A stretch of DNA of 39,675 nucleotides. Origin: an uncultured Oscillospiraceae bacterium. Its GTDB lineage: Bacteria > Bacillota > Clostridia > Oscillospirales > Oscillospiraceae. Position numbers and translations under genes: made by a program. A model generated the notes under the pieces. It saw nothing but the letters and a program-made list of their open reading frames with translations, searched no databases and was not told the origin of the DNA. The stretch is from NCBI GenBank assembly GCA_947629795.1, contig CANRFC010000028.1:1-39675 (forward strand), read 5' to 3'. Shown piece by piece: positions 3,699-7,313 of the stretch (position 1 is the stretch's first letter; every line of letters starts with the position of its first letter).

Positions 3699-3727
3699 TT
3701 GACAAATCTCCCCTCCCCCACTATAAT
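3699..3727 (+). promoter_or_regulatory. cysE promoter
   Basis: TTGACA (3699-3704), a 17-bp spacer and TATAAT (3722-3727) form a consensus sigma-A promoter. The cysK promoter has the same arrangement exactly 881 bp further on. Confidence 0.88.
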
Positions 3728-3756
3728 CCTATTAACCCATTAAGAGAGTAGGGAAT
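3724..3756 (+). promoter_or_regulatory. Conserved block (operator plus leader ribosome binding site) upstream of cysE
   Basis: This 33-bp block overlaps the -10 element and runs into the 5' leader. It matches the block before cysK (4605-4637) at 25 of 33 positions. It contains AATCCTATTAACC (3725-3737), which is repeated exactly in the iscR promoter, and ends with a ribosome-binding-like AGAGTAGG. Binding by the neighbouring Rrf2 regulator is inferred. Confidence 0.6.
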
Positions 3757-3760
3757 ATAG

Positions 3761-3943
3761 ATGTGTATTGACCTCTCATCTCTCCGGGCCCTCATGAGGG
3801 TCCCTCCCGGGACCCTGTCCGGGCGATGTCGGCGGTCTCCGCAGGCATATCAAACAACTAAATCTATCAGGAAGGGCTGTGATCTCAATGACTCAGCAAG
3901 CGGCCCGTTCAGGCGGACTGTTGGCCGCCTATCAGCGCCGTGA
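3761..3943 (+). CDS. Putative Cys-containing leader ORF of cysE
   Basis: An ORF whose ATG follows the conserved promoter block by exactly four bases, as in the cysK leader. It starts [11 protein letters not shown] and has Arg-Cys-Arg at codons 22-24 (CGA TGT CGG, 3824-3832), the same codons at the same register as in the cysK leader. The middle is not conserved. Unlike the cysK leader, this frame has no stop after Arg-Cys-Arg. It continues past the cysE start and ends 56 nt inside cysE. Short mutually exclusive hairpins are possible at 3785-3820 (CCCTCATGAGGG versus GGGTCCC-N4-GGGACCC). Its role may be cysteine-sensing attenuation, an inference from position and Cys codons. Confidence 0.4.
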
Positions 3944-4538
3944 CCCGGCGGCGCGCGGCAAACTGGAAATTTTTCTTCTCTATCCCGGCGTCCACGCCAT
4001 GATCTACCACCGCATCGCCCACTGGTTGTGGGTCCACCGTCTCCGGTTCCTGGGCCGGCTGGTCTCCCAGTGGGGCCGCTTCTGGACCGGGATCGAGATC
4101 CATCCCGGTGCGGTCATCGGCCGGCGGCTGGTCATCGACCACGGCATGGGCACCGTCATCGGCGAGACCGCCGAGATCGGCGACGACTGCCTTTTGTACC
4201 AGGGTGTGACCCTGGGCGGGACGGGAAAGGACAGCGGAAAACGGCATCCCACCCTGGGAAACAACGTGCTGGTGGGCTCCGGTGCCAAGGTGCTGGGCCC
4301 CTTCACCGTGGGGGACAACGCCCGCATCGCCTCCGGGGCGGTGGTCCTGGGGGAGGTACCTCCCGACTGCACCGCCGTGGGAGTCCCCGCCCGGATCGTC
4401 CGCTCCGGCGGACGCGCCCACTACGCCGACGACGTGGACCAGGTCCACGTGGCCGACCCGGTGGTGGACGAACTGCTGGCCCTGTCCCGCCGCCTGGAGA
4501 AGCTGGAAGCGGAAATGCAGCAGGAAAAGGGCCTGTGA
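3888..4538 (+). CDS. cysE: Serine O-acetyltransferase
   Basis: Transfers acetyl from acetyl-CoA to L-serine, giving O-acetylserine, the committed step of cysteine synthesis in the cytoplasm. It is a short-type SAT of 216 aa. The N-terminal helical part ends at [17 protein letters not shown]. The left-handed beta-helix then carries [20 protein letters not shown], the catalytic His/Asp loop, and [20 protein letters not shown], followed by [18 protein letters not shown] at 3879 is in frame, but it sits only 2 bp from AGGAAGGG, while ATG 3888 has 11-bp spacing, so I prefer 3888. It is followed by its partner gene cysK, which has its own promoter. Confidence 0.95.
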
Positions 4539-4579
4539 GCCCTTACGGAAAAGTTTTTTCTCTTTCTCCGCCGTTTTCC

Positions 4580-4608
4580 TTGACAAAGGGGCGCATTTGG
4601 CCTATAAT
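4580..4608 (+). promoter_or_regulatory. cysK promoter
   Basis: TTGACA (4580-4585), 17 bp, TATAAT (4603-4608). It keeps the same spacing and downstream block as the cysE promoter. Confidence 0.88.
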
Positions 4609-4637
4609 CCCATTAACCTATTTGAAAGGTAGGTAAT
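4605..4637 (+). promoter_or_regulatory. Conserved block (operator plus leader ribosome binding site) upstream of cysK
   Basis: Second copy of the 33-bp block found before cysE, identical at 25 of 33 positions. It includes AATCCCATTAACC (4606-4618, one mismatch to the cysE and iscR copies) and the ribosome-binding-like AAGGTAGG. The leader ATG at 4642 follows by four bases. Confidence 0.6.
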
Positions 4638-4641
4638 TTCT

Positions 4642-4716
4642 ATGGGTCTCCTTTCCCTTCCCCCGCGGCGCTCCGCAGCGGTCCTCCATCCTCTGTGCCT
4701 GCGGCGATGTCGGTGA
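4642..4716 (+). CDS. Putative 24-aa Cys leader peptide of cysK
   Basis: A 24-codon ORF with its own ribosome binding site. It ends Leu-Cys-Leu-Arg-Arg-Cys-Arg and then a TGA stop. The last three sense codons (CGA TGT CGG, 4705-4713) are identical in sequence and register to those of the cysE leader. Two Cys codons lie within the last six. A stem GTGCC (4697-4701) with GGCAC (4719-4723) embraces the end of the ORF, so ribosome position could affect folding upstream of cysK. The peptide and its role as a cysteine sensor are inferred. Confidence 0.5.
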   Translation: MGLLSLPPRRSAAVLHPLCLRRCR

Positions 4717-4766
4717 CCGGCACCCCCGTACGCGCACAAAATCAATTTTGGATGGAGGAATGAATC

Positions 4767-5699
4767 ATGGGTAAGATCTACACATCCGCCGAGGAACTCA
4801 TCGGCCGCACCCCGTTGCTGGAGCTGAAACGCATCGGGAAGGAGCTGGGCCTGGAGGCCCGGCTGGTGGCCAAGCTGGAGTACCTCAACCCCGCCGGCAG
4901 CGTGAAGGACCGCATCGCCAAGGCCATGCTGGACGACGCCGAGGATAGGGGCCTGCTGAAGCCCGGCTCGGTCCTCATCGAGCCCACCTCGGGCAACACG
5001 GGCATCGGCCTGGCCTCGGTGGCCGCCGCCCGGGGCTACCGCATCATCATCGTCATGCCCGAGACCATGAGCGTGGAGCGCCGGCAGCTGATGAAGGCCT
5101 ACGGCGCCGAGCTGGTGCTCACCGAGGGGGCCAAGGGCATGAAGGGAGCCATCGCCAGAGCCGAGGAGCTGGCCAAGGAGATCCCGGACAGCTTTATCCC
5201 CGGCCAGTTCGTCAATCCCGCCAACCCCGCCGCCCACTACGCCGCCACCGGCCCGGAGATCTGGGAGGATACCGACGGCAAGGTGGACTGGTTCGTGGCC
5301 GGCGTGGGCACCGGCGGCACCGTCACCGGCGTGGGAAAGTACCTCAAGGAGAAAAACCCGGCGGTGAAGGTGGCGGCGGTGGAGCCCAAGGACTCCCCGG
5401 TGCTCTCCGAGGGCCGCTCCGGCGCCCACAAGATCCAGGGCATCGGCGCGGGCTTCGTCCCCGACACCCTGGACACCTCGGTCTATGACGAGGTCATCCC
5501 CGTGACCAATGAGGACGCCTTCGCCCTGGGCAGGCTGGTGGGCAGGAAGGAGGGGGTGCTGGTGGGCATCTCCTCGGGAGCCGCCCTGTGGGCGGCGGTG
5601 GAGATCGCCAGGCGGCCCGAGAGCAAGGGCAAGACCATCGTGGTCCTGCTCCCCGACACCGGGGACCGCTACCTCTCCACTCCCCTCTTTTCCGAGTGA
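4767..5699 (+). CDS. cysK: Cysteine synthase (O-acetylserine sulfhydrylase)
   Basis: PLP enzyme that makes cysteine from O-acetylserine and sulfide, the product of the Asr sulfite reductase encoded further on. It has 310 aa, the usual length. The PLP lysine is K47 in [11 protein letters not shown], the substrate loop is TSGNTG, the PLP phosphate loop is [12 protein letters not shown], and GISSGAA lies near the C terminus. The start is preceded by TGGAGGAA. It lies 228 bp after cysE, with its own promoter, leader and terminator. Confidence 0.95.
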
Positions 5700-5714: not shown

Positions 5715-5744
5715 AAAGGGCCGCCGCGGCTGCGGCGGCCCTTT
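5715..5744 (+). terminator. Terminator between cysK and mnmA
   Basis: A 13-bp perfect stem (AAAGGGCCGCCGC, 5715-5727, with 5732-5744) around a 4-base loop, ending in TTT. No separate mnmA promoter is obvious, so some readthrough from cysK is likely. Confidence 0.8.
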
Positions 5745-6890: not shown

Positions 6891-7313
6891 TCAGATCATA
6901 TCGCTGGTCCCCTGTTCCATCAGATCGGCGATGGTGATGCCGTCAAAGTAGTCATTCACCAGCCTGTTCAGCTTCTCCCACATGGGAAGGGTGCGGCACC
7001 GCCCGGCCCGGGGGCATTGGTTCTCCGCCTCCGCCAGACAGGCCACGGGGGCCAGAGAGTCCTCGGTGCAGCGCAGGATCTCACCCACCCTGTACTCCTC
7101 CGGCGCCCGGCTCAGCCGGTAGCCGCCCCCCTTGCCCCGGAGGCCCACCACCAGCTTCTCCCCCACCAGCATCTTCAAAATGATCTCCAGATACTTTTCC
7201 GAGATCTCCTGCCGCCCCGCGATCTCCCGCAGGGGGATGTAGCCCTCCGTGGGGTGCTCGGCCAGATCCACCATCACCCGCAGAGCATAGCGGCCCTTGG
7301 TTGAAACGATCAT
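6891..7313 (-). CDS. iscR: Rrf2/IscR-family regulator with three-Cys cluster motif (140 aa)
   Basis: Winged-helix repressor of the Rrf2 family. The N terminus MIVSTKGRYALRVMVDLA is typical, with the recognition helix around residues 35-55 (ISEKYLEIILKML) and the wing GLRGKGGGYRL. It keeps C92, C100 and C106 (Cys-X7-Cys-X5-Cys), the position where IscR/NsrR proteins bind an Fe-S cluster and which CymR lacks. That implies sensing of Fe-S or sulfur status. It is divergent from iscS-iscU and separate from cysE-cysK, yet shares a 13-bp promoter motif with them. It therefore plausibly links cysteine supply and cluster assembly. The precise ligand is unproven, and the symbol is by analogy. Confidence 0.85.
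   Translation of the reverse strand: MIVSTKGRYALRVMVDLAEHPTEGYIPLREIAGRQEISEKYLEIILKMLVGEKLVVGLRGKGGGYRLSRAPEEYRVGEILRCTEDSLAPVACLAEAENQCPRAGRCRTLPMWEKLNRLVNDYFDGITIADLMEQGTSDMI

Follow-up and report, generated by a model that had tools for sequence, protein, structure and literature searches.

The cysE–cysK Locus

The window analyzed in this study, a stretch of 39,675 nucleotides from an uncultured Oscillospiraceae bacterium, contains genes encoding serine O-acetyltransferase (cysE) and cysteine synthase A (cysK) on the same strand (Table 1). The start of cysE was picked by homology, and an alternative GTG lies at 3879. Between positions 3888 and 9073, cysE, cysK, mnmA, an Rrf2 regulator gene on the opposite strand, a nifS-type desulfurase gene and nifU make up one neighborhood that runs from cysteine to Fe–S and tRNA thiolation. 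A perfect 13-bp inverted repeat with a 4-nt loop (5715–5744), a possible terminator or processing hairpin, is located between cysK and mnmA. A search of the whole window against Rfam at the gathering score gave 0 matches, hence no T-box match.

A sequence-only reading of this DNA had described a pair of identically built promoters, each followed by a repeated block and a small upstream ORF (uORF) with an Arg-Cys-Arg motif, and had proposed that both ORFs are translated leaders sensing cysteine. The elements themselves are present as described. Both promoters have the TTGACA-17-TATAAT structure, and the 33-bp blocks of cysE and cysK agree in 25 of 33 bases at an offset of 881 bp (best alignment 3721–3753 through 3724–3756). 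An ATG follows downstream of each copy, at 3761 and 4642, and CGA TGT CGG forms codons 22–24 of both ORFs (3824–3832 and 4705–4713). The −10 box falls within the block, which also includes AACCTATTTGAAAGGTAGGTA. The block is mostly promoter plus a probable Rrf2 operator, whose site overlaps the leader Shine–Dalgarno sequence (SD).

TABLE 1. Features of the cysE–cysK region and the nearby regulator gene in the window.
Feature	Position	Strand	Remarks
cysE promoter	3699–3727	+	TTGACA, 17-nt spacer, TATAAT; read from sequence
Operator-like block, cysE copy	3734–3754	+	AACCCATTAAGAGAGTAGGGA; overlaps weak SD of uORF; putative operator
Putative cysE leader uORF	3761–3943	+	60 codons, CGA TGT at 3824–3829; weak SD
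cysE, serine O-acetyltransferase	3888–4538	+	NCBIfam TIGR01172, 233.7 bits (cutoff 210.65); NF041874, 236.3 bits
cysK promoter	4580–4608	+	TTGACA, 17-nt spacer, TATAAT; read from sequence
Operator-like element, cysK copy	4615–4635	+	AACCTATTTGAAAGGTAGGTA; holds uORF SD; similar sites upstream of cysK in relatives; predicted
cysK leader uORF	4642–4716	+	MGLLSLPPRRSAAVLHPLCLRRCR, then stop; 24 codons; supported by relatives
Anti-Shine–Dalgarno in cysK uORF	4682–4691	+	TCCTCCATCC; perfect 10-bp complement of 4750–4759, −17.8 kcal/mol
cysK ribosome-binding site region	4750–4759	+	GGATGGAGGA; complement of the anti-SD
cysK, cysteine synthase A	4767–5699	+	NCBIfam TIGR01139, 454.3 bits (cutoff 350.95)
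Rrf2-family regulator (IscR/CymR-like)	6891–7313	−	TIGR00738, 124.8 bits (cutoff 73.3); candidate for the operator

The cysK uORF begins 33 nt behind the −10 box, with its SD (GAAAGG) in between and inside the operator-like element. As the earlier reading stated, the ORF stops at once and has two Cys codons among its last six: Cys19 is TGC (4696–4698), CGA (4705–4707) is followed by the TGT of Cys23 (4708–4710), and TGA (4714–4716) comes directly after CGG. An NCBIfam search with four leader ORFs at E-values up to 10 returned no match.

The ORF upstream of cysE is built differently. It has no early stop, overlaps the start of cysE by 56 nt and fails the SD test. Within the window, CGATGT at the same frame and offset is the sole evidence for a leader at this gene, a weaker case than that for cysK, and a cysE copy of the leader is best regarded as possible but weak.

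Distribution of the Leader in Relatives

Searches for cysK covered 60 relatives as well as 395 genomes of the order, which is taken from its named relatives to be Oscillospirales, and 316 of the 395 yielded a match at a strict cutoff. The 160 cysK upstream regions compared (159 distinct) represent the best-scoring part of these matches plus two further loci, not all cysK genes of the order. A short ORF with an in-frame Arg-Cys pair was identified in 31 of these 160 upstreams and is absent from 129. CGATGT was found within 200 nt in 37 upstreams, six of which were dropped: L036, where the motif falls within the cysE gene; L170, at 42 nt and lacking an SD start; and L172, L177, L215 and L300, at 181–194 nt with no in-frame start and apparently within the upstream gene. 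Four loci with weak or GTG starts (L174, L224, L232 and L302) fail the SD test and were kept among the 31 leaders.

According to their family labels, the leader-bearing genomes span nine families within the order. The 88 cysK upstreams taken from outside it (87 new) contained three leaders (L365, L405 and L416), and L394 from this class set was dropped at a distance of 192 nt. The 31 and three cysK leaders, together with six cysE leaders (the window's included), constitute a set of 40 leaders selected by CGATGT, in which the first base of the Arg-Cys pair lies 55–107 nt upstream of the gene (62 nt for cysK in the window). A conserved ORF length, which the sequence-only reading had named as a mark to look for, is not seen, as both length and sequence of the leader vary among relatives. 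Examples, each closed by a stop codon, are MKRTTYSKRC (L049), MKYDLSLRCRRC (L160), MRSHLPYFRCRRYC (L164), MRPISLWARC (L313) and MRNCVCCCEYRCCRRISA (L136).

The 16 leader-bearing members of a tree of 60 cysK proteins are scattered, requiring 13 changes, of which at least four are forced by well supported branches. Leader clustering on this tree is no clearer than with shuffled labels (144 of 500 shuffles were as low), and the bootstrap is not fully settled. Since the leader is scattered and the codon pair described below is fixed, the pair is kept while the leader comes and goes. Grouped by simple motif rules, leaders mostly precede cysK genes with promoter-like sequence of their own (26 of 78), against 3 of 47 cysK genes that belong to a metY-like operon and 2 of 34 in other settings.

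We also looked for the leader elsewhere in the genomes. The promoter/operator-like block pattern, allowing up to three mismatches, gave two sites in the 2.86-Mb genome, namely those at cysE and cysK, and none with a reversed-pattern control. A strict Arg-Cys-stop pattern was run over 394 genomes, and 57 of the 60 matches listed were checked, three nested duplicates being left out. Eight of them are in frame. Four are the known cysK leaders of G043, G067, G066 and G158, three look by sequence like chance matches inside or antisense to other genes, and one is a further in-frame match in G185. This pattern is strict, and other target genes with weaker SDs or different endings would escape it. Loose uORF patterns, applied to the genome of the window and 29 leader genomes, were too unspecific for use.

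A Fixed CGA-TGT Codon Pair

The part of the leader shared by relatives is a pair of codons. Among the 159 distinct cysK upstreams of the order set, to which the hexamer analysis refers, CGATGT occurs in 32 windows spanning 45–120 nt upstream of the gene against 2.4 expected (z 19.1). It ranks second among all hexamers behind TTGACA, the −35 box (z 22.0), and GATGTC, the most frequent permutation of its bases, occurs in 14. Where CGATGT lies 40–125 nt upstream (33 cysK upstreams), an SD-started open frame runs in the CGA/TGT frame in 27 cases and in the two other frames in 0 and 1. All three occurrences outside the order are likewise in an SD-started frame.

A scan blind to CGATGT was performed on the cysK, class and cysE sets, accepting any ATG with an SD match of at least 4, a start 60–150 nt upstream and a stop at least 20 nt before the gene. 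It returned 93 uORFs, 34 of which contain Arg-Cys (32 loci). In the SD-started uORFs, the end-product codon is retained within an Arg-Cys pair, for which Arg before Cys is CGA in 36 of 36 and Cys after Arg is TGT in 36 of 36; L267 and L270 are counted twice here, and the figure is 34 of 34 without double counts. Elsewhere in these leaders, 5 of 66 Arg codons are CGA, and the remaining Cys codons are divided between TGT (10) and TGC (10). As background, in long ORFs of the fetched loci CGA makes up 6.0% of Arg codons and CGA-TGT accounts for 6 of 206 Arg-Cys pairs. Nine Cys-containing uORFs from the scan lack Arg-Cys, one being the polycysteine ORF of L011 and the rest having no clear pattern.

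The constraint extends by one base. The nucleotide after CGATGT is a pyrimidine in all 40 leaders, compared with 208 of 482 occurrences in the loci at large, a control that includes the leaders. The residue after Cys in the 36 pairs is Arg in 11, Cys in nine, a stop in 12 and another residue in four. Arg-Cys-Arg, proposed before as the conserved unit, thus gives way to CGA-TGT plus a pyrimidine. Judged from the relatives, the cysK leader in the window exceeds chance; comparison at this level makes it very likely that it is translated and likely that it senses cysteine. The proposal of a translated cysteine-sensing leader is strongly supported for cysK, by relatives in nine families and three genomes outside the order, and more weakly for cysE in the window.

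A Probable Rrf2 Operator Layer

An unlikely alternative is that conservation here reflects promoter and operator DNA alone, bound by an Rrf2 protein (CymR/IscR-like), and that the ORF behind it is accidental. The repeated block overlaps the −10 box and the start region, and similar sites were identified in 11 of 20 chosen genomes (the window's own included), all 12 sites being located upstream of cysK. Some of them, at L161, L163 and L166, occur with no leader. A looser operator pattern matched in 11 of 60 genomes and had no match in the genome of the window. An Rrf2 gene similar to that of the window, where it lies on the strand opposite to cysK, is divergent to cysK in five of the six loci looked at (L158, L160, L163, L170 and L035); at the sixth, L037, no divergent Rrf2 gene was recognized by pattern. 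The window protein scored below the equivalog cutoffs for IscR (113.5 of 207.55 bits) and CymR (91.5 of 195 bits).

DNA-binding control, however, leaves the uORF unexplained, together with its in-frame CGA-TGT, the frame bias and the fixed codons, and CGA-TGT is also present in leaders with a different, stronger SD (L044, L049 and L313). Operators of the CymR/IscR type are probably a second layer on the same promoters, in which the Rrf2 regulator would control the promoter above the leader.

Decoding Context of CGA-UGU-Y

The best reading of these data, to which we assign a probability of roughly 0.7, is that the translated cysK leader senses the supply of cysteinyl-tRNA at a poorly decoded Cys codon and, in the window, acts by translational attenuation. 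Among the 30 of 39 tRNA loci examined in the genome of the window, tRNA-Arg genes have the anticodons ACG, CCG, CCT and TCT, with no TCG seen, and one tRNA-Cys was found, with anticodon GCA. Given this set, I34 probably decodes CGA by pairing with its A, and UGU is probably decoded through a G-U wobble. A pyrimidine 3′ of a codon weakens decoding, as known from classical suppressor-context work. A P-site CGA, an A-site UGU and a 3′ pyrimidine would together make a poorly decoded Cys codon, so that the pause would come early as the Cys-tRNA supply falls. In our interpretation, selection has favored CGA-UGU-Y as a weak context for the cysteine codon. A fixed codon pair on scattered branches within a drifting peptide points to selection on decoding kinetics, not on the peptide or the RNA fold.

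In the Salmonella his leader, ribosomes stalled strongly at CGA, which was the slowest partner in Arg-Arg pairs except with AGG (PMC4046918). P-site CGA causes +1 shifts in yeast without frame-keeping factors, and the wobble pair of this codon is considered to destabilize elongation (PMC6301793). In Bacillus subtilis, translation was not impeded by four consecutive CGA codons (PMC10454642).

The same conservation could in principle belong to an RNA motif, CGATGTY(G), serving as a protein or structure site without being translated. Conservation at the nucleotide level, with CGA, TGT and the next pyrimidine all fixed, is what such a site would have, and in L136 the stretch CGATGTTGCCG can pair with the 5′ arm of the terminator. 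An RNA site needs no frame, yet the frame counts are 27:0:1; the extra Cys codons point to translation, and folding gave no common pairing partner of the SD. We consider this explanation highly improbable.

About equally improbable is that CGA-UGU-Y is a starvation-triggered +1 frameshift site, at which, with CGA in the P site and UGU starved, Val-tRNA would read GUY in the +1 frame and the ribosome would continue toward cysK. The invariant Y would be accounted for as part of GUY, and P-site CGA shifts to +1 in mutant yeast (PMC6301793). In 24 of 40 leaders the +1 frame stays open until less than 20 nt from the gene or further, against 16.8 ± 2.9 in shuffles (4 of 300 as high); two alternative frames were examined in this way, alongside other tests. 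In the other 16 of 40, the +1 frame closes more than 20 nt before the gene (e.g., after VDTV or VNF), and no conserved peptide follows the site. A broader version, which we rate a shade higher and still very unlikely, is that CGA-UGU-Y is a purpose-built decoding weak spot that would convert slight drops in Cys-tRNA into a ribosome event, which in some leaders would be a programmed +1 frameshift past the leader stop to the cysK start. If true, +1 frameshifting at this site would be an amino-acid sensor that reads starvation via frameshifting. A second ORF starting from the ATG inside CGATGT was considered and rejected, its frame being open to the gene in 19 of 40 leaders against 16.9 in shuffles (93 of 300 as high). 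Least probable of all is an arrest peptide whose nascent Arg-Cys chain senses free cysteine or another ligand: a stop comes directly after Cys in 12 of the 36 pairs, or in 10 of 34 once double counts are removed, but the rest of the peptide is variable and the constraint is on codons, not residues.

A Possible Translational Switch Upstream of cysK

Under the attenuation reading, scarce Cys-tRNA would cause the ribosome to pause at a leader Cys codon. Translational attenuation is probable in the window because a perfect 10-nt anti-SD is located just before the Cys codons, its complement ending four nt upstream of Cys19. A match of this length was reached by 22 of 20,000 shuffled leaders. A ribosome paused at Cys19 or Cys23 would sit on or just past this anti-SD, which would otherwise pair with the ribosome-binding site of cysK, and its occupation would turn cysK translation on.

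Overall, the exact switch in the window is moderately supported. In folding predictions, SD access rises only from 0.02 to 0.12 when Cys19 is blocked, and blocking codons 10–18 is about as good; with Cys23 blocked it is 0.02. The rise is small because the SD can find other partners within the leader. When only the RNA downstream of the ribosome is allowed to fold, access is about 0.5. Over the 40 leaders, the footprint of a stalled ribosome increases SD access by 0.07 on average relative to the free fold (p 0.004); seven gain more than 0.15 and none loses as much. The gain over these 40 leaders is not clearly above that of shuffled leaders (0.013, p 0.07). In L051, L158, L160 and L214, the SD is predicted to pair with bases 3–9 nt upstream of UGU and would be freed by the stalled ribosome. 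Release of the SD by a stalled ribosome is likely, on these models, in the window and a few relatives.

As a universal mechanism, SD release was rejected: besides the seven of 40 leaders in the footprint model, the downstream-RNA-only model gives a mean gain of 0.015, with one leader of 40 above 0.2. Intrinsic terminators were likewise rejected as a general mechanism, being flagged in five of 40 leaders, with L136 as the sole convincing case. In L136, a strong intrinsic terminator comes after a cysK leader with six Cys codons, the layout of a classical transcription attenuator. With SD release in some leaders and a terminator in L136, attenuation may be built in a lineage-specific manner around one sensor.

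Leaders and T-Boxes Upstream of cysE

In the 110 cysE upstreams (109 distinct), CGATGT occurs at 40–125 nt in six, of which five are in frame after an SD start. The T-box core motif is present in 66 of the 110. A T-box reads uncharged tRNA directly, not via the ribosome. A CGA-TGT uORF is located behind the T-box motif upstream of cysE in L089, L096, L103 (Oscillibacter valericigenes Sjm18-20) and L117, which may thus carry two tRNA-Cys-dependent sensors in series. A leader with four Cys codons and without the CGA-TGT pair, MKCPCHCCRPILNRNPA, lies behind the T-box motif at cysE of L011. At the cysE promoters of L008 and L010, the start region carries another palindrome-like element, CATAAACATAGTATNTTAGTATG, which may be a different Rrf2 site; in both loci cysK is close behind cysE on the same strand.

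Comparison With Known Systems

An SD and start codon upstream of a pathway gene, as in leader-peptide attenuators, are found in the cysK leaders and in the cysE leaders of relatives; the SD of the cysE ORF in the window is too weak for the SD test. A cysteine T-box upstream of cysE in relatives would control the same gene; the window has no T-box match. Histidine leader peptides have been reported in bacilli in a study which states that, with the exception of the ermC leader, such systems had been demonstrated solely in Proteobacteria and Actinobacteria (PMC2965389). Among the sources covered here, cysteine attenuation leaders have so far been described from Actinobacteria and Alphaproteobacteria. 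No clostridial cysK or cysE cysteine leader was found among the best matches listed from the open-access literature, which is weak evidence since most subscription papers fall outside its scope. In a group of gut Clostridia, the leader would be one more small gene that no NCBIfam model covers, and it raises a general, testable question, namely whether such sensors put their critical codon in a badly decoded context.

Three known systems are closest. In Rhodobacterales, uORFC-8-2 upstream of cysS is also a Cys uORF with predicted ribosome-mediated attenuation; unlike the leaders described here, it has two tandem Cys codons, mostly UGC, placed in a stem that is followed by a terminator (PMC8632094). 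Candidate cys leader peptides of Actinobacteria are similar in having Cys codons near the stop and no conserved terminator, but they belong to another phylum and other operons and have runs of Cys codons, and the text available from that source names no Arg-Cys signature (PMC1262725). Mycobacterial cys operons have polycysteine leader ORFs with cysteine-responsive attenuation (Canestrari et al., 2020, as cited in PMC13236596) and share with the present locus a short Cys-coding ORF upstream of cysteine genes. Those ORFs are, by the title of that work, leaderless and polycysteine, whereas the ORFs found here start from an SD, often have one or two Cys codons and contain an invariant CGA-UGU; in the cysK uORF of the window, an SD is present and Cys19 and Cys23 do not form a run. 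On this comparison of sequences, the cysteine leader of cysK is real and conserved. It is a variant of the cysteine attenuation leaders already known, and its codon-pair signature was unexpected.
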